A DNA stretch of 32,404 nt from the IMG/VR virus record IMGVR_UViG_3300028283_000022, positions 1 to 32,404 of that record; one strand, written 5' to 3'. Under the pieces are notes generated by a model. The model did not search any database. It saw only the letters and a program-made list of their open reading frames with translations, and was not told the origin of the DNA. Both the position numbers and the translations under genes were made by a program. The stretch is from a virus. Shown in pieces: positions 11,862 through 30,271 of the stretch (position 1 is the stretch's first letter; every line of letters begins with the position of its first letter).

Positions 11862-14666
11862 TTAACCCCCTAAGCTCGCTTTGAACATTCTCAGATTAAA
11901 CAGACCTCGTTCCATTGCGCCCATTGCGAACGTATCTATCTTCGAGATATCAGATTCAGTAGATAAATTGTTTTGGGCAACGCTATTATTAGCACTCACA
12001 GTGCATTGCTTGTTCTCTGATGCCGTATTTCCAGACTCAACAACATTTCCTTCTTGATCCACGCGCTCTGCGTTCACATCTCTAGCCGCATCGTACCCTT
12101 GCCCCTTCTTTAATTCCATTTCGCTAAGCACTTTCAGCGCATCAATACGTTGCTTGTTCACCTTCTTTTGATGAGTTTCCTTGAAAGACTCATAAGAAGA
12201 TTCGAGTTTCGGATCTTCGGTAACGTTATTATACATTGCCGTCCTAACCCTCTGCGCATTTGATAACAACACTTTCAAGTCATGACCAGTCTTTATAAAG
12301 AACGGGGAATTGTGCTTCAGGTAGAACGCAACCAACGCGGGTGCCTCTTGACCCACATCTTTTGCAAATCGCTTAATCATTGAATGTGACGCAGCATTTC
12401 TAAGAGCTGGCGCATTGTATCGACTGAGATACGCAGCAGCATATGCGTCCCAAGTTTTTTGGCACAATTCAAACAAAACTGGATCCACGCCTTCTTTTAG
12501 TTTCCTAACTCCCTTATTTTTAGTCTCTGCAATAACGTCAGGAGCAGAAAAAACGGTGGAGACCAATTCGAACCCAGACGCCCGCGGTTCCTGCGCTTCC
12601 TGAACAACTGATTGCGTGACAACTTCGGGTTCAACTCGTACCAGAAGATTCTGTTCGACAATATTAACGCCTGCCAGATAGCTATTCATTGCTTCTTTAG
12701 TCGCGCCATCCAACGTCTTCCTTTTTTGTCTGCTCTGCCGTGGTTCTACGACCGCGATAATCTGATCCTCTTCGCTCACGTGTTTATGTGTCAACACTGG
12801 AACTCGGTCAGAATCAATCTGCGTTAGTGAACGAGTGTTCAGATTTACGGCCACGGCAATGACACTACCAATCACATTAAAACCATCGATCGGCTCGGCT
12901 CGTTTCACGCGACGCGATTCTTCCTTTGCCTTTTTTGCCTCTGCCGCTTTCCTTGATTTCTCTTGCACTTTAACAAACGCACGCATTAGCTCTGGGTCGC
13001 CACCAGTGATTCTGATTGCCTTTTCTTCTTCCGTTTCTTCCCTTCCTTGTCCCTTCATAACCTCAGAAACACTCACAACCTCTTGATTTATAACGGGAAT
13101 AGACAACGCTTCCTTGTCCCTTCCTGCCTGCTCGATATCGTTCTGCTCTTGCAGGTCTTTATACGCTTGCATCAAATCTGGATCACCACCTGTAAGCTTG
13201 AATATCTTTTCCTCTTCCGTTTCAAAACCAGTTAGATCGTTTAGGCATGGGTGACGCTGTGGCAAATCGCAGATGCTTTCCTGTCCACTCATCCCATCCG
13301 CAACGCACGCAACCTCTTGATTTACAACATGAATATCGGATGCCTGCTCGTCCCTTCCTCCCAAATCTTCAATCTCCTCGGTAATGGGGATTACGCGCGC
13401 GCGATCTAATTCCATTTTGTTAGTAGCCCCAACAACCTCAACCCGCGGAATTTCACCAACGCCGTTAAACGCGCCTACCGTGCTTTCTGGCGAGTTCTCA
13501 TGGGTACCCGCTACCTTTGCACTACCTCCCACGTCAACAGGTGTTACATCGAACGCTGGCAAGTCACACGCGGGCTCTGAAATCTGCTCAGCCAAGCAAT
13601 CGGGAGTTTCGGCATGAGAGGGGGGATTCGCAACTGGGGGAGAGGCAGTATCTTTTAGACCTAAGACTGGGTTTTGAGTGAGAGAATTGATTTCAACAGC
13701 TAACGGCTCTGGCGAGGCTTCTAAACCATGGCTAACCTCAGGCTTCAAGATTGGGTTGGTCTCTTTAGTAAACGTCAACTGAGAAGATTCTAGGCTGTTA
13801 GAAGCAAGGTGTTGGGACTTGTCAGTGTTCTTCTCTTCAAAACCATCCTTGGACGTTGTTTCCTGTTTGTCTTTCTTGTTTTCACAATCTCTATGGGTAG
13901 TGTCAGGGTTAACACATGTCCGAGTGCTAAGCGTAGCGAGCATCTCGGGAAGTCTTTTGATTGTGCTTGTCAGTTCAAGTACTGCGATCAGTATTGCTTG
14001 TGCGAAAGTTGTTGGCTCGGTGTTGTCAGTTTGCAAAGGTTTTGACTTTGACTTTTCTTTAGTACTTTGACTTTGATCTAAAGGCAAAGAAAAAGACTTA
14101 AGGATGTGGTCCGCTCTTCCGATAACTAAGCGATCCTCTTGGTCATTTTGACCCTGCTCCGTCCTCGTCCCCTCATCCGATTTTAATTCCTCGCAAACCG
14201 TTGATTCAGCAGAAGAAATCAGTGTTCCAACTTGTCCCTTCATCGCTGTTTTTTGTTGTGCTTTGCTCGTCCCTTCCTTGTCCCCTCCTCGTCCCTTCCT
14301 CATTTGAACGGAATAATGCGGAGCTGCGGACGTATCCTTTTTTTCGTCGATGTCGGCAAGAGGTAAGCGGAACACGAAGTCTGCGCCGTCCTCTTCCAGT
14401 CGCTCAACAAGACCAGCACGTCCAAGCTCGTTGATCCTGCTCTCGATGTACTTGCGCGTGCGCTTGACTGGTTTTTTAGTAGAGCCACGAACAGGGGTGA
14501 ACTCGATAGTTTCTTTGAGAGACTGAATGCTCACTCGACGCCTAAAGCCAACTTCTGCGGTCTCGAAGTTAACGTACGGCTTGAGACCAAGAACGTAGAT
14601 CACTTTTGCATCTGCACTCAAACCCTGAGTAGCCCACTGCTCATTTGTGTTTAGATAGGTTCTCAT
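11862..14666 (-). CDS. Large replication-initiator-like protein with internal repeats
   Basis: A 934-aa protein. Residues 1-105 form a winged-helix-like region (WATQGLSADAKVIYVLGLKPYV ... TRKYIESRINELGRAGLVERLEEDGADFVFRLP) as in phage replication initiators. Residues 110-430 are a long, polar, probably disordered linker. Residues 438-506 and 515-566 are two copies of one unit: GRD-x(7)-NQEV, then EEEK-TGGDP-LM-A. A basic helical stretch follows (about 567-590). The C-terminal part (about 750-880: LCQKTWDAYAAAYLSRYNAPALRNAASHSMIKRFAKDVG) resembles a DnaT/initiator C-terminal helical domain. It begins by ATGA overlap with a small gene. No polymerase or helicase motif is seen. Initiation or loader recruitment is inference; the length is far above usual initiators (250-350 aa). 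Confidence 0.75.
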   Translation of the reverse strand: MRTYLNTNEQWATQGLSADAKVIYVLGLKPYVNFETAEVGFRRRVSIQSLKETIEFTPVRGSTKKPVKRTRKYIESRINELGRAGLVERLEEDGADFVFRLPLADIDEKKDTSAAPHYSVQMRKGRGGDKEGTSKAQQKTAMKGQVGTLISSAESTVCEELKSDEGTRTEQGQNDQEDRLVIGRADHILKSFSLPLDQSQSTKEKSKSKPLQTDNTEPTTFAQAILIAVLELTSTIKRLPEMLATLSTRTCVNPDTTHRDCENKKDKQETTSKDGFEEKNTDKSQHLASNSLESSQLTFTKETNPILKPEVSHGLEASPEPLAVEINSLTQNPVLGLKDTASPPVANPPSHAETPDCLAEQISEPACDLPAFDVTPVDVGGSAKVAGTHENSPESTVGAFNGVGEIPRVEVVGATNKMELDRARVIPITEEIEDLGGRDEQASDIHVVNQEVACVADGMSGQESICDLPQRHPCLNDLTGFETEEEKIFKLTGGDPDLMQAYKDLQEQNDIEQAGRDKEALSIPVINQEVVSVSEVMKGQGREETEEEKAIRITGGDPELMRAFVKVQEKSRKAAEAKKAKEESRRVKRAEPIDGFNVIGSVIAVAVNLNTRSLTQIDSDRVPVLTHKHVSEEDQIIAVVEPRQSRQKRKTLDGATKEAMNSYLAGVNIVEQNLLVRVEPEVVTQSVVQEAQEPRASGFELVSTVFSAPDVIAETKNKGVRKLKEGVDPVLFELCQKTWDAYAAAYLSRYNAPALRNAASHSMIKRFAKDVGQEAPALVAFYLKHNSPFFIKTGHDLKVLLSNAQRVRTAMYNNVTEDPKLESSYESFKETHQKKVNKQRIDALKVLSEMELKKGQGYDAARDVNAERVDQEGNVVESGNTASENKQCTVSANNSVAQNNLSTESDISKIDTFAMGAMERGLFNLRMFKASLGG

Positions 14667-19691: not shown

Positions 19692-20063
19692 ATGAAGAAA
19701 TTAGCAGGCGCAAAAGTGATAAGCCCCAACCTAGATGCAACGTTCTATTCACCAAAGGTTGTTGGCGAGGAAAAGCGCGGTTGGGTAATGGGTATAGAGC
19801 GTATTGAGAAGACGGATCAAATTACCGGGGAAGTGAAGAGAGAAGATGTGGTTAGGTTCAGGGAAGACGGAGAGAACGCAAAAGACCTTTTTATCGGACA
19901 AGCGTCGTTTGTTCGTTTGATTACACACTTAATCAAAGAAAATAAAATTAAAACTGGTGTGGATGGGACGCCAATTCAAACCCGGTACAAAGGAACGGTA
20001 AAGAACAAATCAAACAACTTCGAGTCGAAGCTATTCGAAGTGTTTATGCTATCCACGGATTAA
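19692..20063 (+). CDS. Hypothetical protein
   Basis: A 123-aa protein (KKLAGAKVISPNLDATFYSPKVVGEEKRGWVMGIERIEKTDQITGEVKREDVVRF ...). It begins one base after the stop of the small zinc-ribbon gene, pointing to coupled translation. The beta-rich central part and the basic region PIQTRYKGTVKNKSNNFESKLFEVFML are compatible with an OB-like nucleic-acid-binding fold, but I cannot assign a family. It is followed by 171 bases without a clear gene, holding GC-rich inverted repeats. Confidence 0.65.
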   Translation: MKKLAGAKVISPNLDATFYSPKVVGEEKRGWVMGIERIEKTDQITGEVKREDVVRFREDGENAKDLFIGQASFVRLITHLIKENKIKTGVDGTPIQTRYKGTVKNKSNNFESKLFEVFMLSTD

Positions 20064-20081
20064 ACGGGAGTCACAACTCAA

Positions 20082-20154
20082 AACCCGACGGGCGGCGCGG
20101 GTTGAATGGCATAGATTGCTAATGCGTAAGTTCCCTCGGTTTAGCCTGCGCAGG
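20082..20154. other. GC-rich structured leader upstream of the kilAC-nrdJa unit
   Basis: The gap 20064-20234 has a hairpin AACCCG (20082-20087) with CGGGTT (20098-20103) and a perfect ten-base palindrome CCTGCGCAGG (20145-20154). It is conspicuously more GC-rich than its neighbours. I looked for a cobalamin riboswitch because nrdJ enzymes use AdoCbl but found no convincing B12 box. Confidence 0.35.
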
Positions 20155-20234
20155 TGCATAAACGCCGTGACTTAATCTCAACGCGAAATCTACGCAAGCC
20201 GCCATCCTTCAATTCCTTCTTATTAAAATCAAAC

Positions 20235-20609
20235 ATGGCAAGAAAACTAAAACTGAAAAAACAAGAAGAGATGAGCAGTAAGCCCGTCACAATTACTGTT
20301 GCATCGGGATATCTGAAGGTACCACCCGCAGAGGTTTATAACTATCTACAAGAATTGGGTTGGGTCTATAAAAACTCAGGTAGTTTTGTTGCGAATCAAG
20401 AGAAAATAAAAATGGGACTGTTAGAGCATGCAGATGTGAAAGAGCAGATTTTAATTACGCGGAATGGGGTAGTGAAACTATCTCAGATATTCGCAATAAA
20501 CATGTACTACCAGACTGCAAAAAATGTTTTGGCTATTAGTAAAAAAGAAGATATCAGCAGGCTTAGAAAATTATATCCGACCGCTAATAGTGAAGACACA
20601 AATGACTAA
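20235..20609 (+). CDS. Stand-alone KilAC-domain protein
   Basis: A 124-aa protein. Residues from about 18 match the KilAC domain found at the C-terminus of phage antirepressors: ITVASGYLKVPPAEVYNYLQELGWVYKNSGSFVANQEKIKMGLLEHADVKEQILITRNGVVKLSQIF. The usual BRO-N or KilA-N half is missing. The start is uncertain: the ATG at 20235 lacks a clear ribosome site; an ATG at 20271 has AAGAAG very near, and the frame is open from a GTG at 20154. Its stop overlaps the nrdJa start (ATGACTAA), so it is co-translated with the reductase. It may modulate the antirepressors further on. Confidence 0.72.
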   Translation: MARKLKLKKQEEMSSKPVTITVASGYLKVPPAEVYNYLQELGWVYKNSGSFVANQEKIKMGLLEHADVKEQILITRNGVVKLSQIFAINMYYQTAKNVLAISKKEDISRLRKLYPTANSEDTND

Positions 20610-23556
20610 TCTACAGAGCGTTTCTCTCGACATCTTCAACAAGAAATACCGACTCAAAGACAAGAATGGAAGCTGGGTAGACCAGACCATCGAGGACACT
20701 TTCAAGCGGGTTGCCAGAGCATTAGCTAATGTGGAAAAGGAAGATATACGCGAGGAGTGGTACGAGAAATTCTTGTGGGCTATGAACAACGGAGCCATTC
20801 CAGCAGGCCGCATTCTCTCCAATGCAGGTGCCACTGAGTACAAACCTTCTACCTCTACGATTAACTGCACGGTATCTGAACACGTCCAAGACTCCATGGA
20901 TGGCATTCTCCACGCTGTCCACCAAGCAGGCTTAACCCTTCATTCGGGAGCGGGTATTGGCTATTGCTTCTCCACACTCAGGCCAAAAGGTGCGTTCGTT
21001 TCAGGTGCTGGCTCCCACACTTCGGGGCCGCTTTCGTTTATGGAGATATTCGACAAGATGTGCCAAACCGTGTCATCGGCAGGTGGCAGGAGAGGGGCAC
21101 AAATGGCCACGTTCGATGTATCCCATCCAGACATCCTAGAGTTTATTAGAGCCAAACGAGAAGACGGCAGGCTACGACAATTTAATCTCTCGGTGCTAGT
21201 TACCAAAGAGTTTATGGAGGCCGTAGAAAATGATGCTAAGTGGGTACTGTCCTTCCCAATCCAAAAGAATCATGTCAAGGATAAATCAGAATTGGCCGAT
21301 CCTACCAAAGTGGTTTGGAGAAAGTGGCCAATCACGGAAGGTTACTTTGTAAATAAAGATGGACTAGTGGCGTGCAAAGTCTACAAAGAACTTCCTGCCC
21401 GCAGGCTTTGGGACGCCATCATGTCCTCCACCTACGACTACGCAGAGCCCGGATTCATTCTAATTGATGAAGTAAATAGCCTAAACAATAATTGGTGGTG
21501 TGAGGAGATTACGGCCACTAACCCTTGCGTCACGGGCGAGACAAGACTTCATACAGACAAGGGAATGATTCCAATACGCGAGCTATACGATTCCAAAGAA
21601 TTGATTGTTGCATCTGTAGATACTCGCACTCTCAATAGCAAGCCTGATTGCATTGGCGTGGTTCCTAGAGCAGCTGCGCCAGCATTTCAAACATGTACGG
21701 GAGCGGAAGTGTTTGCCGTGGAAACTGAGCACGGCTATAGCATCAATGCCACGGACTGGCACGATTTCTATACCACACGAGGCAAGATTGAGCTTCGTGA
21801 TCTAAAGGTTGGTGATCAACTTCTAATTCAATCTGGGAAAGGGCAGTTTGGAAAAGAAGGAGAGTTTCAAGACGGGTACGCAATGGCTTCAAAGTCGTCT
21901 GCATTGGTTCCTGACAACGTCTGGAAAGGTTCCGAGGATTATGTACGAGGTTATTTGCAGGCTCTCTACGAACACTACAGCGACCTATCTGGCGTTACGA
22001 AGGGAATAAGGGGAGGAAAGGAAGAGAAAATACGGCTGTTTGCGGCTTATCGGTTTTCCGATGAAAACTACCGATTTCTCAAGAATGTCCAGATACTTCT
22101 ATCCAACTTTGGAATACTCTCGAAAGTAATCGGCAGGAAATTAGATATTAGCACGTTGATTGTCTCTGGTGCATCAGTCCATAAATTCATGGCTGAAATC
22201 GGATTCCCAGCGCAAGGAAACAGATTTACTAGAGTTTGCATAGATAACCCGTGCTCCTCTGAAAACACTATAAAGAAAACGGAACACTACTACTCGAAAG
22301 TGGTCAGTATCGAGCCGCTGGGAATCTTCCCGGTCTATGACACAACACAGCCCGACCATAACTCCGTAATCTTCAATGGAATCGTAACCGGGCAATGTGG
22401 AGAGCAGCCATTACCCCCAAACGGTTCTTGCCTGCTGGGATCAATAAATCTAACTAAGTTTGTAGAACATCCATTCACTGAACAAGCTAAGTTTGACTGG
22501 AAAAGGTACATAGAAGTAGTCGAAATCTTCACCCGCATGTTAGATAACGTAGTGGAGATTAACGGCCTACCCCTTCCAGAGCAACGGAACGAGATTACCC
22601 GTAAGCGCAGACATGGAATGGGATACCTAGGACTAGGGTCTACCTTGACCATGCTAAAGATTCCTTATGGTAGTCCAGAGTCTATTGGGTTCACGGAACG
22701 AGTAACTAGAGAATTAGCACTGGTCGGTTGGAAGGTAGGGGTTGAATTAGCAAAAGAGAAAGGGGTTGCTCCGATATTTGAAGATTTCTTCGAGATTACG
22801 CCTGCTATAGCAAGGCTTAGGCCAGCGTTATTGGAAGATGGCTACAAGGTTGGCGAGAAGGTTTCAGGGAAGATACTATTCAGTTATAGCCACTATATGG
22901 AGAAGATCCGAGAGGTTAATCCAGCATTGCCAGAAGAGATCAAAACCTACGGCTGCCGATTTACTCACCATTCTTCTATAGCCCCCACAGGAACAATCTC
23001 CCTTTCACTTGGAAACAATGTAAGTAACGGAGTAGAGCCTAGCTTTGCCCACCAGTACTCAAGGAATGTCATCCAAGAGGGTAGGAAGACCAAAGAGAAA
23101 GTAGACGTGTTCTCTTATGAGTTCCTAGAATACCGTAGATTGATCGACACCAACGCCACAGTAGATAGCCTCCCTAGCTATTTCGTAACCGCTTCAGACA
23201 TTCCTCCCAAAGCACATGCCGACATTCAATCGGCCGCACAGAAGTGGGTAGATAGCAGCATATCCAAAACTATCAATGTCCCAACTGACTTTCCCTACGA
23301 AGAATTCAAGGAAATTTACCGGTACGCCTATAAAAAAGGGCTAAAGGGATGTACCACGTTTAGGTATAACCCTGCGGTTTTCCAAGGCGTGCTGGTAAAG
23401 GACAAAGACCTAGAGGCTACCAAGTACCGATTCGTATTGGACACGGGAGAAATTATAGAACTAAAGGGAAACGAAGAGGTGGAGTACGAAGGGGAAACTC
23501 ACACGGCCGCCAATTTATTTGATGCCATGAAAGAAGGGTATTACGGGAAACTATGA
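20602..23556 (+). CDS. nrdJ: AdoCbl-dependent (class II) ribonucleotide reductase, large part NrdJa, with intein
   Basis: A 984-aa precursor. Without the intein (residues 309-598) it is a 694-aa class II reductase converting ribonucleotides to deoxyribonucleotides with a B12-derived radical. Seen: TINC with Cys89 (redox Cys), FNLSVLVT, the finger-loop ATNP-CGEQ (thiyl Cys and Glu) interrupted by the intein, PNGSCLLGSINL, APTGTISL, and GCTTFRYN near Cys917. The C-terminus AANLFDAMKEGYYGKL is where the NrdJa half ends in organisms with split NrdJ, such as Pseudomonas, and the missing TSCPD part is encoded at 27129. The ATG at 20602 overlaps the kilAC stop; the frame is open upstream but the family starts here. 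Between nrdJa and nrdJb lie eight small or antirepressor-type genes, which is very unusual. Confidence 0.93.
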   Translation: MTNLQSVSLDIFNKKYRLKDKNGSWVDQTIEDTFKRVARALANVEKEDIREEWYEKFLWAMNNGAIPAGRILSNAGATEYKPSTSTINCTVSEHVQDSMDGILHAVHQAGLTLHSGAGIGYCFSTLRPKGAFVSGAGSHTSGPLSFMEIFDKMCQTVSSAGGRRGAQMATFDVSHPDILEFIRAKREDGRLRQFNLSVLVTKEFMEAVENDAKWVLSFPIQKNHVKDKSELADPTKVVWRKWPITEGYFVNKDGLVACKVYKELPARRLWDAIMSSTYDYAEPGFILIDEVNSLNNNWWCEEITATNPCVTGETRLHTDKGMIPIRELYDSKELIVASVDTRTLNSKPDCIGVVPRAAAPAFQTCTGAEVFAVETEHGYSINATDWHDFYTTRGKIELRDLKVGDQLLIQSGKGQFGKEGEFQDGYAMASKSSALVPDNVWKGSEDYVRGYLQALYEHYSDLSGVTKGIRGGKEEKIRLFAAYRFSDENYRFLKNVQILLSNFGILSKVIGRKLDISTLIVSGASVHKFMAEIGFPAQGNRFTRVCIDNPCSSENTIKKTEHYYSKVVSIEPLGIFPVYDTTQPDHNSVIFNGIVTGQCGEQPLPPNGSCLLGSINLTKFVEHPFTEQAKFDWKRYIEVVEIFTRMLDNVVEINGLPLPEQRNEITRKRRHGMGYLGLGSTLTMLKIPYGSPESIGFTERVTRELALVGWKVGVELAKEKGVAPIFEDFFEITPAIARLRPALLEDGYKVGEKVSGKILFSYSHYMEKIREVNPALPEEIKTYGCRFTHHSSIAPTGTISLSLGNNVSNGVEPSFAHQYSRNVIQEGRKTKEKVDVFSYEFLEYRRLIDTNATVDSLPSYFVTASDIPPKAHADIQSAAQKWVDSSISKTINVPTDFPYEEFKEIYRYAYKKGLKGCTTFRYNPAVFQGVLVKDKDLEATKYRFVLDTGEIIELKGNEEVEYEGETHTAANLFDAMKEGYYGKL
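21526..22395 (+). other. Intein in NrdJa at the catalytic-loop Cys
   Basis: A 290-residue in-frame insert between ATNP and CGEQ. It starts with Cys (CVTGETRLHTDKGMIPI, block A), has a T-x-x-H block B (ATDWHDFYTTRG), the LRDLKVGDQL strand, and ends with DHNSVIFNGIVTGQ before the extein Cys. The last residues are Gly-Gln where most inteins have His-Asn; Gln-ended inteins in ribonucleotide reductases are known to splice. The middle (YVRGYLQALYEHYSDLSG, then LKNVQILLSNFGILSKVI) looks like one degenerate LAGLIDADG-type endonuclease core with the acidic residues lost, so homing is probably dead. The reductase would be inactive until splicing. Confidence 0.9.
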
Positions 23557-23861
23557 TGAGCACGAATAGAATACAAACCAAAGTTGTGTTTTACGGTCGA
23601 CATTGCGAAATCGATACCCTGATCGATGCGTCCTATCACATAGAAGAGCGCGACGGTTTGGAGTATTGCATTCTCGAACAATGGGAACTATTGGAATTTT
23701 GCGGAAAGAAGATTCAGAGTGAAAAGCAATACGAAAAGTGTTTGGGTGCATTGATGCACAGCACGGGCATCCCAACGATTGAGGGCGCAATAAACGAACT
23801 AGAAGACACAGTACAAGAAGCCGTTGAATCCCACACTACAGATGAGAATTGCGATGCATAA
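23553..23861 (+). CDS. Small hypothetical protein after nrdJa
   Basis: A 102-aa acidic protein whose ATG overlaps the nrdJa stop (ATGA; a second ATG follows directly). Sequence: STNRIQTKVVFYGRHCEIDTLIDASYHIEERDGLEYCILEQWELLEFCGKK. The C-terminus is Glu/Asp-rich. Its first residues resemble a 27-residue frame that follows the second nrdJa-end copy at 26296 (IQHIELEVVF), so this gene may be part of the duplicated segment. Its stop overlaps the start of the Rha-type gene. No family was recognised. Confidence 0.65.
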   Translation: MMSTNRIQTKVVFYGRHCEIDTLIDASYHIEERDGLEYCILEQWELLEFCGKKIQSEKQYEKCLGALMHSTGIPTIEGAINELEDTVQEAVESHTTDENCDA

Positions 23862-24606
23862 TCTAGCCATGAATAGCCTTATGCCTATTTTCAATAACGC
23901 CGCGGTAATGACCTCCCGAGAGATTGCGGAGTTGGTGGGCAAGCGTCACGATCACGTACTACGAGATATTCGCGTAATGGTCGAAAAGTTTTTAGCCTCC
24001 CCAAAATTGGGTTGGCATTGTGTGTCAACGACTTACGTGGACGAGCAAGGAAAACCACGCGAGATGTTCGAATTAGACAAAGACACCACGCTTACCTTGA
24101 TTTCTGGGTATGACCCAGTAGTCCGATTCAAAATCATCAAACGCTGGCAAGAGCTAGAAGCAAATACGCAAACCAGCATTCCAGCTATTGGCTCTACTTA
24201 CTCCAACGCTCACTTGGTATTTGATGCCCTATTCAAAGTTTGTCAGCTGATTGGATTAGACACCAATGCCGCGGCAATCTCTTCTAATAATGCCGTGGTG
24301 CGCAAAATTGGGATTAACCTGCTCGAAGAGGTGGGGCAAGCCAAGCTACCCTCCCCTAACAACGTTGTGACGCTAACCCCCACAGACATAGGAAAGTCCA
24401 TTGGCCTATCCGCTAGAGAAGTAAACAAGAAGCTAGAGTGTCTTGGTCTGCAATACCTATTAGGAAAGGTTTGGGTACCAACAGAAGCGGGTAAGCAGAA
24501 AGGAGCTAGGGTAATCGACTCTTCGAAGAAGAATAGTAAAGGTGCGATGATCCAACAGCTTCGATGGTCTCAAAATATCCTTGTTCTACTTACCGATGGT
24601 GTCTAG
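23854..24606 (+). CDS. Rha-family phage regulatory protein
   Basis: A 250-aa protein with the Rha domain (pRha) at about residues 15-105: VMTSREIAELVGKRHDHVLRDIRVMVEKF ... FELDKDTTLTLISGYDPVVRFKIIKRWQELE. The C-terminal part (VVTLTPTDIGKSIGLSAREVNKKLECLGLQYLLGKVWVPTEAGKQ) is another helix-turn-helix type domain found in such proteins. Rha proteins act as phage regulators, some blocking growth in integration host factor mutants, others as antirepressors. The ATG at 23854 overlaps the stop of the previous gene; several later ATGs are possible (23869, 23881). It opens the island of antirepressor-type genes between nrdJa and nrdJb. Confidence 0.85.
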   Translation: MHNLAMNSLMPIFNNAAVMTSREIAELVGKRHDHVLRDIRVMVEKFLASPKLGWHCVSTTYVDEQGKPREMFELDKDTTLTLISGYDPVVRFKIIKRWQELEANTQTSIPAIGSTYSNAHLVFDALFKVCQLIGLDTNAAAISSNNAVVRKIGINLLEEVGQAKLPSPNNVVTLTPTDIGKSIGLSAREVNKKLECLGLQYLLGKVWVPTEAGKQKGARVIDSSKKNSKGAMIQQLRWSQNILVLLTDGV

Positions 24607-24610
24607 TTCC

Positions 24611-24805
24611 ATGGAAGACACTGATTTTAATAGCTGGTTCCTCGAAAACTGGCGCAACAAATCAGAAGAAAACAAACTCCAGCGCGAACAAGAAATGGAA
24701 ATTGCGCAAGCAATTGAAGCATTATTTGACAACGGAGATACAGAATCTTACGGTCAAGAATTCATTGATCTTTTAGGTGCTCAAAAATGCAACCAGTCTC
24801 GATAG
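24611..24805 (+). CDS. Small acidic hypothetical protein
   Basis: A 64-aa protein (MEDTDFNSWFLENWRNKSEENKLQREQEMEIAQAIEALFDNGDTESYGQEFIDLLG...) starting four bases after the Rha-type gene. It is helical and acidic with amphipathic character, and has no recognisable family. Tight spacing supports it, but the ribosome site is weak. Confidence 0.55.
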   Translation: MEDTDFNSWFLENWRNKSEENKLQREQEMEIAQAIEALFDNGDTESYGQEFIDLLGAQKCNQSR

Positions 24806-24838
24806 ACGTAGCAACGCTTTTCAACTAGAGAAACCAGA

Positions 24839-25624
24839 ATGACCAATCTAACCGTTTTTAAGTTTGAAGATATCCAAGATGTCCGAGTTGTAATGTTAAA
24901 TGAGACACCTTGGTTTGTGGCTACTGATGTTTGCAAAATTTTGGGGATAAAAAACACGTCGGACACAATGTCCAGAATAGACTCAGAAGACACACAGACT
25001 ATAGATTATTCAATTGTGGCTATCACCTATAGTCGAGAAAATCAATCACTTAGCGCGTTTGATCCAAAGAAGATTATCGTGGTCAACGAGTCGGGACTCT
25101 ATTCTCTTGTGCTTTTTAGTCGTAAACCAGAAGCAAAGAAATTTAAGAGGTGGATTACTTCAGAGGTTGTTCCGTCTGTTCGTAAAACTGGCCAGTACTC
25201 GATTGTTGCTCCTGCCAAACCAATTGAGCTAACACGCCTCCAGTTAATCGAGATGGCACTAGCCGCCGAAAAGGAACGATTGGTACTAGAGGCTAAAGTT
25301 CAGGAACTAGAACCAAAGGCCGTGGCACTCGACAGAATTGCAGAGAGCAAAGGTTCGCAGTGCATTACGGACGCTGCTAAAGCTCTAAAGGTTCAACCGT
25401 GCAAGCTATTCGAGATACTGGTAAACAAGAAGTGGATATACAAACGGGACGGCGGCAAGAATTGGCTAGGCTACCAAGACAAGATCGAGTCTGGCTTGCT
25501 AGAACACAACATCGTGGTGATTGGTTCAATGTCACGTGAGCAGGTCTTACTAACGAGTAAAGGTATTACGAAGATTGCACAGGTGTTAGGTGGAACAATA
25601 ACTGTGCAGGCGAGGCTTTGGTAA
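24839..25624 (+). CDS. Antirepressor with BRO-N and KilAC domains
   Basis: A 261-aa protein. BRO-N at residues 1-115: FKFEDIQDVRVVMLNETPWFVATDVCKILGIKNTSDTMSRID ... VNESGLYSLVLFSRKPEAKKFKRWITSEVVPSVRKTG. A helical linker (KERLVLEAKVQELEPKAVALDRIAE) leads to KilAC at about 175-255 (CITDAAKALKVQPCKLFEILVNKKWIYKRDGGKNWLGYQDKIESGLLEHNIVVIG...LLTSKGITKIAQVL). This is the full layout of phage Ant proteins, which bind and inactivate repressors, or regulate directly by DNA contact. A plain AGAGAAAC precedes the ATG. It would counter the double-HTH repressor encoded at 16113, by inference. Confidence 0.9.
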   Translation: MTNLTVFKFEDIQDVRVVMLNETPWFVATDVCKILGIKNTSDTMSRIDSEDTQTIDYSIVAITYSRENQSLSAFDPKKIIVVNESGLYSLVLFSRKPEAKKFKRWITSEVVPSVRKTGQYSIVAPAKPIELTRLQLIEMALAAEKERLVLEAKVQELEPKAVALDRIAESKGSQCITDAAKALKVQPCKLFEILVNKKWIYKRDGGKNWLGYQDKIESGLLEHNIVVIGSMSREQVLLTSKGITKIAQVLGGTITVQARLW

Positions 25625-25654
25625 TTAGTACTAATCCAAATTTAGGAGCAATTC

Positions 25655-26266
25655 ATGAACAAGTTTACTGTTTACCAGTTCGAAACAAACAAGATCAGGG
25701 TATGGCGTGATAGTTTTGGCAACCCTTGGTTTTCCGTTCACGACATATGTCGGTGCGGCCGATCTAACAACCGCGTATGGTTTTATGGCTTGCCAGAGAA
25801 CCAACAGGGGATAGCAAATGTATCATCCACGAAGTCTGTCTTGGTCGTTAGTTTTTACGGGTTGGTGACAGCCTCGGAGAAAACTCGTACCGACGTTAAA
25901 AAACTCATTGACTTTATCAGGTCAACCGTGATGCCTAACTTTCAGAAGAAAGACATTGCTAGTGTTGCACCATCCACTACTAAGACAACAGAATCAAAGC
26001 CATTTGCGTTGAGCCTAGCTTTTGAGAATCCAAAACAGGCAATTACATCCGAAACTAAAGAGATTGCAAAACCTGCCATTACGCTATCAACAGAAGAGAA
26101 GATAGCGACCATTTTTAGAATACAATCCGAATTGGAGAAGGTGCCGGGAGTAAATAAGTCTCGGTTGTTATCCGAAACCCTAAGTTGCTTGCAAGAGGTT
26201 ACTGGATTACCCCTTGATAGCATGCGTTCGTTAATTACAGATGAAGTTACACAACGTGGCCGCTAA
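25655..26266 (+). CDS. BRO-N-like protein, degenerate, with a different C-terminal domain
   Basis: A 203-aa protein with GGAG six bases before its ATG. Residues 1-95 look like a weakened BRO-N domain: YQFETNKIRVWRDSFGNPWFSVHDICRCGRSNNRVWFYGL ... VVSFYGLVTASEKTRTDVKKLIDFIRSTVMP. The C-terminal 60 residues (LSTEEKIATIFRIQSELEKVPGVNKSRLLSETLSCLQEVTGLPLDSM) are a helical domain that is not KilAC. The stop lies inside the second copy of the nrdJa 3' end, so this gene ends at a recombination scar. Likely a regulator or antirepressor relative with changed specificity. Confidence 0.72.
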   Translation: MNKFTVYQFETNKIRVWRDSFGNPWFSVHDICRCGRSNNRVWFYGLPENQQGIANVSSTKSVLVVSFYGLVTASEKTRTDVKKLIDFIRSTVMPNFQKKDIASVAPSTTKTTESKPFALSLAFENPKQAITSETKEIAKPAITLSTEEKIATIFRIQSELEKVPGVNKSRLLSETLSCLQEVTGLPLDSMRSLITDEVTQRGR

Positions 26267-26304
26267 TCTGTTTGATGCCATGAAAGAAGGGTATTATGGA
26301 AAAC
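26258..26304 (+). pseudogene. Second copy of the nrdJa 3' end (remnant), matching 23505-23551
   Basis: 47 bases match the nrdJa end with five differences. Read in the nrdJa frame, they still code AANLFDAMKEGYYGK, because all five changes are at third codon positions. The remnant is then followed by unrelated codons and a stop. It lies between the BRO-N-like gene and the small genes before nrdJb and marks the place where the reductase pair was rearranged. It must come from a separately evolved nrdJa, not from a recent copy of the one here. Confidence 0.85.
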
Positions 26305-26379
26305 CGCGACATACAGCACATAGAATTAGAAGTGGTATTTTCCGATAGTATACAGAAGGAGAAATTATATGAGTATTGA
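26296..26379 (+). CDS. Very small open frame after the nrdJa-end copy
   Basis: A 27-residue frame (MENRDIQHIELEVVFSDSIQ, then KEKLYEY) starting within the last codons of the nrdJa-end copy, as the 102-aa gene does after the intact nrdJa. The shared IQ-x-x-x-VVF-like core suggests that it is the truncated relative of that gene. It may be debris rather than a working gene. Confidence 0.3.
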   Translation: MENRDIQHIELEVVFSDSIQKEKLYEY

Positions 26380-26572
26380 CCGTCCGATTAGATGTCGACA
26401 TGCAAAAACGGCAATAGGCAATATCAAGTATTTTATTGCAGAGGGAGGGCACTGCGTTATTGTTTCTCGACATACTGACAATCTGGAGGCAGCGAAAGTT
26501 CTTTACCGTCATTTATTTGTTGGTAAAAGGGTTCATTGCGGAAATCAAGTTTGCAAAGACTCGTTAGCATAG
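26369..26572 (+). CDS. Small hypothetical protein
   Basis: A 67-aa basic protein with AGAAGGAG upstream of its ATG (SIDRPIRCRHAKTAIGNIKYFIAEGGHCVIVSRHTDNLEAAKVLYRHLFVGKRVHCGNQVC...). Three of its four Cys fall in the C-terminal part. No family was recognised. It belongs to the short gene run between the nrdJa-end copy and nrdJb. Confidence 0.55.
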   Translation: MSIDRPIRCRHAKTAIGNIKYFIAEGGHCVIVSRHTDNLEAAKVLYRHLFVGKRVHCGNQVCKDSLA

Positions 26573-26592
26573 ACGTTGCGGGAGTTTATCAA

Positions 26593-26796
26593 ATGGTTTG
26601 CTTAGAGCATGATTCTTCATGTAGTGAACGGTTTTTCACAGGAGATTCTGTGGTAGACAATTACAATCCTAGAACAGAGCGTGGGATTAGGTTGCTTGCC
26701 ATACGCCGAGATTACGTGGTCAATGGTGGACAACTTCTTGATGGTGATGCGCTGGATGTTGAAATACAGATGCGAAAAAATGTAGTGATTGAATAA
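26593..26796 (+). CDS. Small hypothetical protein
   Basis: A 67-aa protein beginning at an ATG with GGGAG eight bases upstream (MVCLEHDSSCSERFFTGDSVVDNY..., then RGIRLLAIRRDYVVNGGQLLDGDALDVEIQ). The frame is open for 57 more bases upstream without a ribosome site. The second half looks like a compact beta domain. The function cannot be predicted. Confidence 0.52.
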   Translation: MVCLEHDSSCSERFFTGDSVVDNYNPRTERGIRLLAIRRDYVVNGGQLLDGDALDVEIQMRKNVVIE

Positions 26797-26812
26797 CTCG
26801 GAGAAATTAAGC

Positions 26813-27151
26813 ATGCCATGCATCAGCTACGAAAACACGTATTACAAAATGCAAATGGATATTTGGGAAGAAGAAGGTGAGATTTGGTTCTTCCTAGATG
26901 CTGTGGTGCTACCAGAACGACTAACACGAGTAATAGACTCTCTCGAAAAAGTAGAAGAGAGATTTCTTAGAGGGCTTAGGGACAACACGAGAAAAGTGTA
27001 TTGCCACGGAGTCCAATACGTCGTGAATAAGGAAGGTCTCGACATTCTAACCTCTATGAGAGAAACCCCAGACATCATTGCCCCATTCTGCCACGCCGCA
27101 ATACTCAAACACCGAAAAGGAGAATTGAATGTCAACCAGAATTGCAACTAA
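26813..27151 (+). CDS. BRO-N-like truncated regulatory protein
   Basis: A 112-aa protein with GGAGA before its ATG at 26813. The pattern MQMDIWEEEGEIWFFLDAVVLPERLTRVIDSLEKVEERFLRGLRDNTRKVYCHGVQYVVNKEGLDILTSMRETP follows a BRO-N domain (W-F-x-x-x-V... then V-N-x-x-G-L), but without conserved 'S-R' and any C-terminal domain. It overlaps the nrdJb start by 23 bases. Probably a regulator fragment or decoy; the family call is by pattern only. Confidence 0.55.
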   Translation: MPCISYENTYYKMQMDIWEEEGEIWFFLDAVVLPERLTRVIDSLEKVEERFLRGLRDNTRKVYCHGVQYVVNKEGLDILTSMRETPDIIAPFCHAAILKHRKGELNVNQNCN

Positions 27152-27755
27152 GATCGTTGATTATAGCGTTGTCCAGTCCGATGCTACCGTGCTTCAAATG
27201 CCAATAGCTTCGAATCCTCAAAGCATAATAGTTACAACCGCAAAAAAAGAACGGCCTCCCCTTCTCCACGGAACCACTTACAAAGTGCTAAGCCCGTTAT
27301 CTGAGCACGCCATGTACGTGACCATCAACGACATACTAGAAGATGGCAAGCGGTCACCATTCGAGATGTTCGTTAATTCTAAGAACATGGAACACTACCA
27401 ATGGATCGTAGCCCTCACCCGCACAATATCAGCAGTGTTTAGGCATGGTGGGGACGTGAGCTTTCTAGTTGAAGAGCTCAAATCAGTATTTGATCCAAAA
27501 GGTGGCTATTTCAAAAAGGGTGGGAAGTGGATGCCTTCACTAGTGGCCGAAATTGGGGATGTGATTGAGGAGCACCTATCTTCTATTGGATTGTCTTTTA
27601 AGGTGCCTGCCGTGAATCCATCCGCACGAAACGCTGGAAGTGTATCCAACCATACCGCCATGGAAGTACAGTGCGAAAAATGCCTACAATTCTCAGTAGT
27701 GGTCAGCGAGGGATGTAGTACGTGCATGAGTTGTGGAGATTCAAAATGCGGATAA
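27129..27755 (+). CDS. nrdJ: AdoCbl-dependent ribonucleotide reductase, small C-terminal part NrdJb (TSCPD)
   Basis: A 208-aa protein that corresponds to the C-terminal TSCPD-containing part of class II reductases: LLHGTTYKVLSPLSEHAMYVTINDILEDGKRSPFEMFVNSKNMEHYQWIVALTRTISAVFRHGGDVSFLVEELKSVFDPKGGYFKKGGKWMPSLVAEIGDVIEEHL, then a Cys-rich tail with CEKCLQF and CSTCMSCGDSKCG that may carry electrons to the active site. In Pseudomonas, NrdJ is split in the same way into NrdJa and NrdJb from adjacent genes and both parts are needed. Here the halves are separated by 3572 bases. A good ribosome site AAGGAG lies before the ATG. Its stop overlaps the start of the repA-like gene. Confidence 0.88.
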   Translation: MSTRIATKIVDYSVVQSDATVLQMPIASNPQSIIVTTAKKERPPLLHGTTYKVLSPLSEHAMYVTINDILEDGKRSPFEMFVNSKNMEHYQWIVALTRTISAVFRHGGDVSFLVEELKSVFDPKGGYFKKGGKWMPSLVAEIGDVIEEHLSSIGLSFKVPAVNPSARNAGSVSNHTAMEVQCEKCLQFSVVVSEGCSTCMSCGDSKCG

Positions 27756-28493
27756 CCGTAGCAGAGTCTGTTTGGTTGATTAAAAATTACATACCACGGG
27801 AATCGCTTATTATGTGCCACGGTGCATCTGGTGCTGGCAAGTCCTTAGTTGCATTAGATATGGCTCTACATATCGCAACTGGTAAAAAAGAAGTGGCTTG
27901 GTAACGATGTGAAACAAGGCGTTGTTGTTTACCTGGCAGGCGAGGGCTTTAATGGTTTAATCCGAATGATTCAAGCATGGGAGCAATTTCACAATATCAA
28001 TATTCCTAGTAAGAACATCCATTTCTCAAAATCTGTCGTTGGTCTAAACTCGCCAGATGTCCACAAAATAGTCCGAGAGTCTATTCAAGAATTAAAGCAA
28101 AAGCCGTCCCTGATCATCATTGATACCCTACACATGTTTTTTGCAGGCGACGAGAACAGCGCAAAATATGCCAAGGGGGTGATAGACGTGTGTGGAAAAC
28201 TTACCGAAGAGTTCGGGAGTTCAGTACTGTTGATTCACTATCCGTGCGTATCAAAGAAAGCGCAACACCGAGCGAGGGGATCGAGTGCATTGACACATGC
28301 GATAGATGTGGGATTCAGTGTTGAGAAAGAAATGTTAAGCAACGGAAATTTGGGTCGGATTAAAATTATACCGAGGAAAAGCAGAAACACGGAACTTTCT
28401 TTTCCTATTTATGCAACGCCTTGGAGAGATTTTGCGCCACTCAAAGATCATCCGTTGCTAGCACCGCGCGCCATTGAAAAAGCCGTCTTTTGA
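27746..28493 (+). pseudogene. RepA-like P-loop ATPase (AAA_25 type), split by a one-base frameshift
   Basis: First frame 27746-27904: Walker A CHGASGAGKSLVALDMALHIATG; second frame from 27909 on: QGVVVYLAGEGFNGLIRMIQAW, Walker B LIIIDTLHMFFAG, and SSVLLIHYPCVSKKAQHRARGSSALTHAIDVGF. The parts join without gap if one A is removed from the six-A run at 27884-27889: the reading becomes TG-KKKWLGNDVKQG, as in RepA-type proteins. The intact protein would be about 248 aa, near the RSF1010 RepA size. RepA-like proteins are hexameric helicases. The ATG at 27746 follows GGAG and overlaps the nrdJb stop. Alternatives are programmed slippage at the A run or a sequence error. Confidence 0.82.
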
Positions 28494-28520
28494 CTGCTCT
28501 AGTGAGTGAGTGCTTGCCTT

Positions 28521-29018
28521 TTACCTCACCACTAACCTCGTACCAACAGACAATCGACAACCCGAAACCTCCTTACCTTGTTTCAGTGCTTCCTTGATTG
28601 CGGCCTTATCTACGATCGTATGCTCAACAACACGTGTAGAAACAAATTCAGGTGATAGTGCAGATTCATTTTCTATCACTAATGACGCGGGGTTATTCTG
28701 AATTGAAACACTGAACCAAGGATGCTTGATCTTCTGTGTTCCCACTGCCTCCATGCCAGATTTCACGTATTCAAGCAACCAAGCTGACCGCGTCTCAATC
28801 GCTCGCCTACGCTTTGCCATTGCCTCTTCTGCTTCCTTGATAGCCTTTGCTTCTGCTTCCAAGCCACGCGCAAAAGCGACAATGTTAACTGCTTTAGTAC
28901 CAAAAGCGTCTTGTACGTCTTGCATTGTGTCCGCAACATCAGCAGCGGTCATATCATCCCGCGCCATAAACTCTTCCAGTATCTTCGTGTAATCGCTTGC
29001 AATCTCGTAAAGTTTCAT
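28521..29018 (-). CDS. Siphovirus Gp157-family protein
   Basis: A 165-aa protein of the Gp157 family: MKLYEIASDYTKILEEF at the start, a long helical middle (AKAIKEAEEAMAKRRRAIETRSAWLLEYVKSGMEAVGTQKIKHPWFSVSIQNNPASLVI), and VDKAAIKEALKQGKEVSGCRLSVGTRL at the end, all in the usual order. It is found next to recombination and single-strand annealing genes of many phages; no activity is established. A ribosome site AGAGG precedes the ATG. It is the last gene of a three-gene minus-strand unit. Confidence 0.88.
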   Translation of the reverse strand: MKLYEIASDYTKILEEFMARDDMTAADVADTMQDVQDAFGTKAVNIVAFARGLEAEAKAIKEAEEAMAKRRRAIETRSAWLLEYVKSGMEAVGTQKIKHPWFSVSIQNNPASLVIENESALSPEFVSTRVVEHTIVDKAAIKEALKQGKEVSGCRLSVGTRLVVR

Positions 29019-29033
29019 AGTAACCTCTAAAAT

Positions 29034-29055
29034 AGGGGAGGTATGTCACTCCCCT
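29034..29055. repeat. Hairpin at the 3' side of the annealing-protein gene, matched by 29848-29869
   Basis: AGGGGAG ... CTCCCCT, seven-base arms with an eight-base loop. The plus-strand core is GGGGAGGTATGNNNCTCCCC. Its partner near the gene start carries the same core on the minus strand, so the two copies are inverted with respect to each other. Read on the minus strand this one is followed by ATTTT and could act as a weak terminator before the Gp157 gene. Confidence 0.7.
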
Positions 29056-29066
29056 TGTGTTTGGTT

Positions 29067-29870
29067 TTACTTCGGAACGTCGTTTAGTCGAGTAATAATG
29101 TAATCAACTTGCGAATTAGAAAGGCTTTCAAGATCCGGTGCCGTCTTCGTTTTACTGATTGAGCCAAGGAAAACTGACAATTTCGCAAGAGTGATGCCGC
29201 GGGGTTTTAGTTCGCGAATAAGCCTGTGTATCGGCTCGTCAACAACAGCAACAACCGATTCTTTTGTTGCTAATGACGTGCTCTGAACGCGCCGATTGCG
29301 GTCTTCTTCTGCAATCATTTCTTCAGCAGGCGTTGGTTCATATCCTGCTAATACCATTACCCAGGAGAACGCAAGTCGCGCTGCTTTAGACGTGGCTCGC
29401 GTTTGAGACATGCTTCTACGTGCAAAATCGCCGCGATCGTCCCACAACTTCTCGTCACCCCCGCATTGAGCAGAAGCGCGCGTTAATACCAATCCGTCGC
29501 TAATGCGTACAAACTCTACCGTTGAAATGAAAGCCTTTCCTTCCCTAGTCGTTTCAACTTCCCTAGGCAGAGCTCCCAACATAGCTGCTAACGTTGTCCA
29601 TCCCTCGCACTTGACAAAATTCCTCCCTTTTATGTTGATAGACAAGCCTTGTGCTTCAATCATTTTCTTTAGTTCCGTTGCAACAGCGGCTGAATTTTCA
29701 ACAAAATTCAACGGGGTCGAGGCTTTCAACATGCCTAGATCAACACGGTGTTGAATCTGTTTAGACTCAACAGCGGCTTCTACCGTACCTTCTACTACTG
29801 TCTCTAATGCCTGCGCTTGTGATTCCACTTTTATTTCCCCTTGGTTTTGGGGAGGCTCATACCTCCCCAT
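29067..29870 (-). CDS. Phage single-strand-annealing-type recombination protein (putative)
   Basis: A 267-aa protein. The core ALGLSIN..., NFVKCEGWTTLAAMLGALPREVETTREGKAFISTVEFVRISDGLVLTRASAQCGGDEKLWDDRGDFARRSMSQTRATSKAARLAFSWVMVLAGYEPTPAEEM matches a widespread phage protein group whose RSMxQTRAxSKAxR block resembles single-strand annealing recombinases (RecT/Erf/Rad52-like). The C-terminal 60 residues (HRLIRELKPRGITLAKLSVFLGSISKTKTAPDLESLSNSQVDYII) form a small helical domain. Next to the Gp157 gene this is the usual recombination module. I start at 29870 since AAAGAG lies eight bases upstream; a GTG at 29906 would overlap the previous gene. The first eight codons form a GC-rich hairpin. 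Confidence 0.7.
   Translation of the reverse strand: MGRYEPPQNQGEIKVESQAQALETVVEGTVEAAVESKQIQHRVDLGMLKASTPLNFVENSAAVATELKKMIEAQGLSINIKGRNFVKCEGWTTLAAMLGALPREVETTREGKAFISTVEFVRISDGLVLTRASAQCGGDEKLWDDRGDFARRSMSQTRATSKAARLAFSWVMVLAGYEPTPAEEMIAEEDRNRRVQSTSLATKESVVAVVDEPIHRLIRELKPRGITLAKLSVFLGSISKTKTAPDLESLSNSQVDYIITRLNDVPK
29848..29869. repeat. Hairpin over the start of the annealing-protein gene, inverted partner of 29034-29055
   Basis: TGGGGAGG ... CCTCCCCA, perfect eight-base arms, six-base loop. The minus-strand core GGGGAGGTATGNNNCTCCCC is shared with the hairpin downstream of the gene. On the mRNA it starts at the initiation codon itself and would hinder ribosome binding. Confidence 0.72.
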
Positions 29871-29875
29871 TCTAT

Positions 29876-30271
29876 TTACTCTTTGATCCTGAAACCACCT
29901 ACCCACGTACCCTTGCCTAGCGGTCTATTTTCAGGGTAAACAACAAAGCTGGAATGGATGGGCACAGACACTCGAAAATCTCCGTACTTTCCTTTCTTTT
30001 CTCTAACAACAATCTTGTATCCAAGCTCGTCAGATACGATATTTGCAAATCGTATGGCATCAGACATTGTTGCATAAACAACTTCGGCAACAACGCCGGT
30101 AATTGACTTTACAGACTCTCTCATGTTACGAGCTTCTGCATTCTCATTACTTGCGAGCTGTTCAACATCACGCATGCTCGGAACGGTCATTAGAACAGTG
30201 TATTGCTCACCAGTAAAGCGGTCAGTGCGCACATATTCAATCTTCTTTACGTCTTGAAAAATTCTATTCAT
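29876..30271 (-). CDS. Hypothetical protein, first gene of the recombination unit
   Basis: A 131-aa protein: NRIFQDVKKIEYVRTDRFTGEQYTVLMTVPSMRDVEQLA, then SDAIRFANIVSDELGYKIVVREKKGKYGDFRVSVPIHSSFVVYPENRPLGKG. A strong ribosome site AGGAGG lies four bases before the ATG, but it falls inside a small hairpin (AAAGCC / GGCTTT) that could mask it. The beta-rich second half is typical of small phage accessory proteins. No family was recognised. It leads the unit under the promoter at 30372-30401. Confidence 0.65.
   Translation of the reverse strand: MNRIFQDVKKIEYVRTDRFTGEQYTVLMTVPSMRDVEQLASNENAEARNMRESVKSITGVVAEVVYATMSDAIRFANIVSDELGYKIVVREKKGKYGDFRVSVPIHSSFVVYPENRPLGKGTWVGGFRIKE

Follow-up and report, generated by a model that had tools for sequence, protein, structure and literature searches.

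A second nrdJa tail between the separated nrdJa and nrdJb genes of a tailed-phage genome: a probable scar of recombination

The split class II (B12-dependent) ribonucleotide reductase (RNR) of P. aeruginosa is composed of a catalytic subunit, NrdJa, and a separate cysteine-rich subunit, NrdJb (PMC4520616, PMC5704485). The two genes form an operon, and HDX data on the P. aeruginosa enzyme place the binding of NrdJb near the NrdJa C-terminus (PMC4520616). Adjacency of nrdJa and nrdJb in one operon is usual for split class II RNRs but perhaps not essential. Among phages, disrupted and mosaic RNR genes are on record, with gene exchange, inteins and insertions between the RNR genes (Dwivedi et al. 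2013, PMC3653736).

We report on a window, i.e. the whole of a 32.4-kb IMG/VR virus record, that carries tailed-phage genes (portal, terminase, DnaB-like helicase, endolysin, thymidylate kinase and MazG) together with a catalytic nrdJa and a separately encoded nrdJb, as in P. aeruginosa. The NrdJa C-terminal motif AANLFDA(L/M)KEGYYGK is common to the window and the gammaproteobacterial genes examined. In contrast to the P. aeruginosa system, the nrdJa gene of the window has an intein, and a 3.6-kb stretch with antirepressor genes and a short nrdJa relic separates it from nrdJb. Gene exchange, an intein and an insertion between the RNR genes also characterize the mosaic phage loci of Dwivedi et al. 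(2013, PMC3653736), from which the present locus differs in being interrupted by regulator genes and in having kept the tail of a second copy.

The nrdJa-nrdJb region and its regulator genes

Table 1. Positions of the features of the nrdJa-nrdJb region in the window.
Feature	Coordinates	Strand	Basis
ANT/KilAC-domain-only ORF (antirepressor tail), directly upstream of nrdJa	20154-20609	+	ANT similarity; PHROG antirepressor Ant, E~4e-4
nrdJa, catalytic subunit of split class II (B12-dependent) RNR	20524-23556	+	Pfam Ribonuc_red_lgC, E=6e-126; lgN, E=3e-14
Intein in nrdJa, 290 aa, LAGLIDADG-like domain, C-terminal Gln	21526-22395	+	Pfam Intein_splicing, E=3e-10; LAGLIDADG_3, E=1.8e-5
Repeat copy A, authentic nrdJa 3' end	23505-23551	+	Direct repeat and shared peptide
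ORF overlapping the nrdJa stop	23553-23861	+	N-terminus resembles NrdJb N-terminus
Rha-type antirepressor/regulator, gp11-like C-terminal domain	23869-24606	+	Pfam Phage_pRha, E=5e-17
Bro-N + ANT antirepressor	24839-25624	+	Pfam Bro-N, E=2.5e-23; ANT, E=1e-24
Bro-N-like antirepressor, probably truncated	25655-26266	+	tblastn against AcaML1 gp11
Proposed recombination/deletion junction between the truncated antirepressor and the nrdJa relic	26228-26258	+	gp11 homology ends at 26227, repeat starts at 26258
35-codon frame through relic B (MKLHNVAANLFDAMKEGYYGKPRHTAHRIRSGIFR)	26241-26349	+	Open frame, ATG at 26241; translation doubtful
Relic B, putative last 15 codons of the conserved tail (AANLFDAMKEGYYGK) of a second nrdJa	26258-26304	+	nhmmer, E=9.5e-12
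Small genes of 67, 86 and 112 aa between relic B and nrdJb	26369-27151	+	ORFs
nrdJb, separately encoded cysteine-rich subunit	27129-27755	+	Pfam TSCPD, E=1e-9

The nrdJa gene likely starts at the ATG at 20602, inside the longer ORF listed in Table 1. The Pfam match identifies the class II RNR barrel, and the C-extein is 57-70% identical to proteobacterial and phage NrdJa. The intein ends in Gln without the penultimate His (...NGIVTGQ, followed by CGEQ) instead of the usual HN, and its LAGLIDADG-like domain scores 25 bits.

The nrdJb gene, with the C-terminus GCSTCMSCGDSKCG, is homologous to the gene that follows nrdJa in relatives. The gap between the two genes is 3,572 nt in the window. Among the bacterial and phage loci with a nearby nrdJb, nearly all have it beginning 0-891 nt past nrdJa, mostly <100 nt. 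Different origins of the two window genes were considered, but there is no sign of them: the trees do not conflict, and the window stands beside the same phage, L159, in both the nrdJa and the nrdJb tree, with weak support (58 and 62). The L159 contig has an intein-less nrdJa whose C-terminus lacks the conserved DALKEGYYGK motif and ends GQNLYSFLKVGS, and its nrdJb ends ahead of the usual C-terminal cysteine motif. The intact nrdJa and nrdJb of the window presumably still make one split enzyme.

Between nrdJa and nrdJb the order is the ORF that overlaps the nrdJa stop (ORF 23553), the Rha regulator, the Bro-N/ANT antirepressor, the Bro-N-like ORF, the relic and the small genes, the sequence GAAGGAG preceding the small gene start at 26369. 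Neither an intron nor a free-standing homing endonuclease was recognised in this interval. The closest described counterpart of the Bro-N-like ORF is gp11 of the Acidithiobacillus phage AcaML1 (JX507079), whose Bro-N and middle domains match 25673-26227 in tblastn against the window (E=1e-12; the middle domain, 26072-26227, E=2.7e-9); its Bro-N domain also matches the Bro-N/ANT antirepressor. The homology ends at 26227, whereas gp11 runs 91 residues further, and a domain related to this C-terminal part sits in the window on the Rha protein instead (gp11 C-terminus against 24364-24495, E=6e-5). Judged against this single relative, the Bro-N-like ORF appears to have lost the C-terminal domain kept by gp11. 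Its frame runs into the relic, and its stop codon, TAA, lies inside the repeat.

The ORF directly upstream of nrdJa is 35% identical over 83 aa (E=8e-12) to the ANT domain of the Bro-N/ANT antirepressor. As this ORF ends across the likely nrdJa start codon, translation of the antirepressor tail and that of the reductase gene are probably coupled. With an ANT-only ORF upstream of nrdJa and a gp11-like domain on the Rha protein, the regulator genes around nrdJa look like shuffled pieces. We rejected the idea that the Bro-N-like ORF (head) and the ANT-only ORF are halves of one gene; comparison of the gp11 C-terminus with the ANT-only ORF gave p=0.2.

ORF 23553 occupies the place of the nrdJb start in relatives. 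It opens with MSTNRIQTKVVFY, which resembles the NrdJb N-terminus, MSTRIATKIVDY (p=0.0005 in a shuffle test of 25 x 25 residues), but a PSSM of NrdJb N-termini ranks its start only 9th among 40,497 ten-residue stretches in the window. This is suggestive only, and the start of ORF 23553 is possibly a second relic, of the start of nrdJb. No homologues of the ORF were found.

Other observations concern genes elsewhere in the window. A primase/RepA-like ATPase gene (27722-28493) is apparently split into 27722-27904, with the Walker A motif, and 27909-28493, with the rest; the split is near a run of six A and may be due to an indel in sequencing, to gene decay or to a frameshift. The protein encoded by 16104-16877 matches phage repressor/HTH families in two regions (approximately residues 20-85 and 105-190) and is possibly a fused double repressor. 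Diverged direct repeats (approximately 72% identity) are present at 12960-13362, in the region of a 934-aa minus-strand gene (11862-14666).

A repeated nrdJa tail with synonymous differences only

The two tails, the second of them 2.7 kb downstream of nrdJa and fused to the apparently truncated Bro-N-like gene, form a 47-nt direct repeat with 42 of the 47 bases equal (89%), recovered by blastn self-comparison of the window (E=1.5e-10; own-genome match of the repeat, E=5e-13), and both copies encode AANLFDAMKEGYYGK. The original prediction was thus right about the match, its five changes and the common peptide, but it erred in placing all the changes at third codon positions: the differing codons are GCC/GCT, TTA/CTG, TAC/TAT and GGG/GGA, and TTA/CTG includes changes at positions 1 and 3. 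Hence all five differences are synonymous, and one of them is at a first codon position, the other four being at third positions. All are also transitions; we rejected this as a mutational signature, since at three of the five sites only a transition can be synonymous. A 26-nt core is identical in the two copies, which differ on either side of it. The local copy has the normal nrdJa ending, YYGKL and then the stop, while the relic is without the final codon and stop.

The relic is derived from nrdJa and is not a chance match, because an nhmmer profile built from 52 nrdJa 3' ends of other organisms, with neither window copy included, finds it with the E-value given in Table 1; the alignment does not reach beyond 26254-26302. 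Anchored alignments revealed no significant homology beyond the repeat, upstream or downstream. For the 3' flank, an unanchored test gave p=0.008, which was not reproduced in the anchored test (p=0.12).

A neutral copy of the local gene had been expected to show scattered changes. This holds in outline, and by a naive calculation five random changes would spare the peptide with a probability of 1e-4 to 3e-3. These values are too generous to the original argument, since it overlooked that the local gene is itself under selection and adds synonymous changes only. When one constrained and one neutral copy were simulated, the probability that all five differences are synonymous was 0.002-0.013. 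As a control, nrdJa tails of different species were compared where they encode the same peptide: the median was 9 differences in 45 bases, and five or fewer separated 50 of the 543 pairs, so five differences fit two related but separate lineages. The simulated probability speaks for two functional lineages and against a dead local copy that drifted, and over the 15 codons available we regard two separate nrdJa lineages as a moderately better reading than neutral drift of one copy. The proposal that the remnant came from another functional nrdJa lineage hence stands as the best-supported reading, although its strength was overstated. Because the family is so conserved over these 15 codons, functional copies normally differ by synonymous changes alone, and this pattern can be used neither to date the donor nor to place it.

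The main competitor is that the relic is a copy of the phage's own nrdJa end, generated by slippage or unequal crossing-over, in which the five differences arose later. The Met that both copies carry (DAM where most tails have DAL) is uncommon: a class-wide gammaproteobacterial sample had it in 1 of its 48 tails, and an order-level sample in 5 of 294 genomes. With 5/45 differences, moreover, the two copies rank among the closest 9% of between-species pairs. A neutral copy should, however, gain amino-acid changes, and given the simulated probability above we consider a local duplication unlikely.

Search for a donor and further explanations

No donor was found among phages: megablast of positions 20000-30000 against 50,697 phages gave no match, distant blastn of the two tails returned at most short chance matches, and the exact peptide variant DAMKEGYYG was absent from 2.9 million viral contigs. 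The Bro-N/ANT protein was tried and rejected as a locator of the donor, as its 80 loci were distant relatives only. The tail closest to the relic is that of a chromosomal nrdJa in a gammaproteobacterial MAG (NZGG01000019), which agrees with the relic at 42 of 45 bases (three differences) and with the local copy at 40 of 45 (five), the two window copies differing at five. An nrdJa nearer to the remnant than the local one, which the original prediction had called for, thus exists nominally, but it does not identify a donor: unrelated nrdJa lineages also reach three differences or fewer, and the two-base advantage is therefore not diagnostic. Nor is this gene followed by the small gene types of the window, as had been anticipated; nrdJb and a thyA-like gene come after it.

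Synonymous-only change would also be expected if the relic were under coding selection. The 35-codon frame through it is open and has an ATG, and it might make a peptide that mimics the NrdJa tail, near the region where NrdJb binds according to the HDX data cited above (PMC4520616). Against this, neither the ATG at 26241 nor the GTG at 26256 is preceded by a Shine-Dalgarno sequence, the frame overlaps the 3' end of the upstream gene, and none of the other nrdJa tails examined clearly stands alone; all but one are in long nrdJa frames, and the exception (L129) is cut by the contig end. We consider selection on the relic improbable, and it is more doubtful still that the product of such a small gene imitates the NrdJa C-terminal tail and thereby tunes assembly of the split reductase with NrdJb.

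Elements that integrate at tRNA genes or icd restore the gene end with their own version. By analogy, the segment 23552-26257 might have integrated site-specifically at the nrdJa 3' end and restored it in this manner; direct repeats flank the segment, the gene end is intact and the 26-nt core is identical. However, Pfam and PHROGs scans of the interval revealed no integrase or recombinase in the segment, its right end is inside an apparently truncated gene, and no like pair of tails is present at other nrdJa ends (a second tail in the available surrounding DNA of 0 of 53 other nrdJa tails). Such an integration is highly improbable, and the suggested mobility of the island through homology at nrdJ ends likewise found no support, given the 0 of 53 and the fact that searches for relatives of ORF 23553 found none.

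Merging of two co-occurring phage strains at the 26-nt identical segment during assembly is equally hard to credit: the exact repeat is present and no near relative of the window was found in any collection searched, but a single misjoin at the core would not remove the second copy, because the copies differ on both sides of it and the local one ends normally, and modern assemblers use word lengths above 26.

A probable history of the locus

Relic B is probably the surviving tail of a second nrdJa of a different lineage, left by a deletion or crossover at 26228-26258. A phage or recombination intermediate would once have held two nrdJa stretches of different lineages in like orientation, one intact and with its downstream genes, the other upstream of nrdJb. 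A non-homologous deletion or crossover would then have fused the antirepressor gene, broken in its middle (26227), with the 15-codon end of the second nrdJa (26258), thereby removing the antirepressor C-terminal domain and the rest of the second nrdJa. In this history we infer the two lineages from the synonymous-only differences, and the two tandem copies and the deletion event are likewise inferred. That recombination built the locus, as originally predicted, is the best-supported reading, and the scar most likely stems from recombination between two related gene sets, i.e. ordinary phage mosaicism.

The locus is a further example of RNR mosaicism and involves no new principle. As a scar of this kind it shows that class II reductase genes can be gained, duplicated and cut back in phages, and that exchange of regulator genes can part nrdJa from nrdJb.
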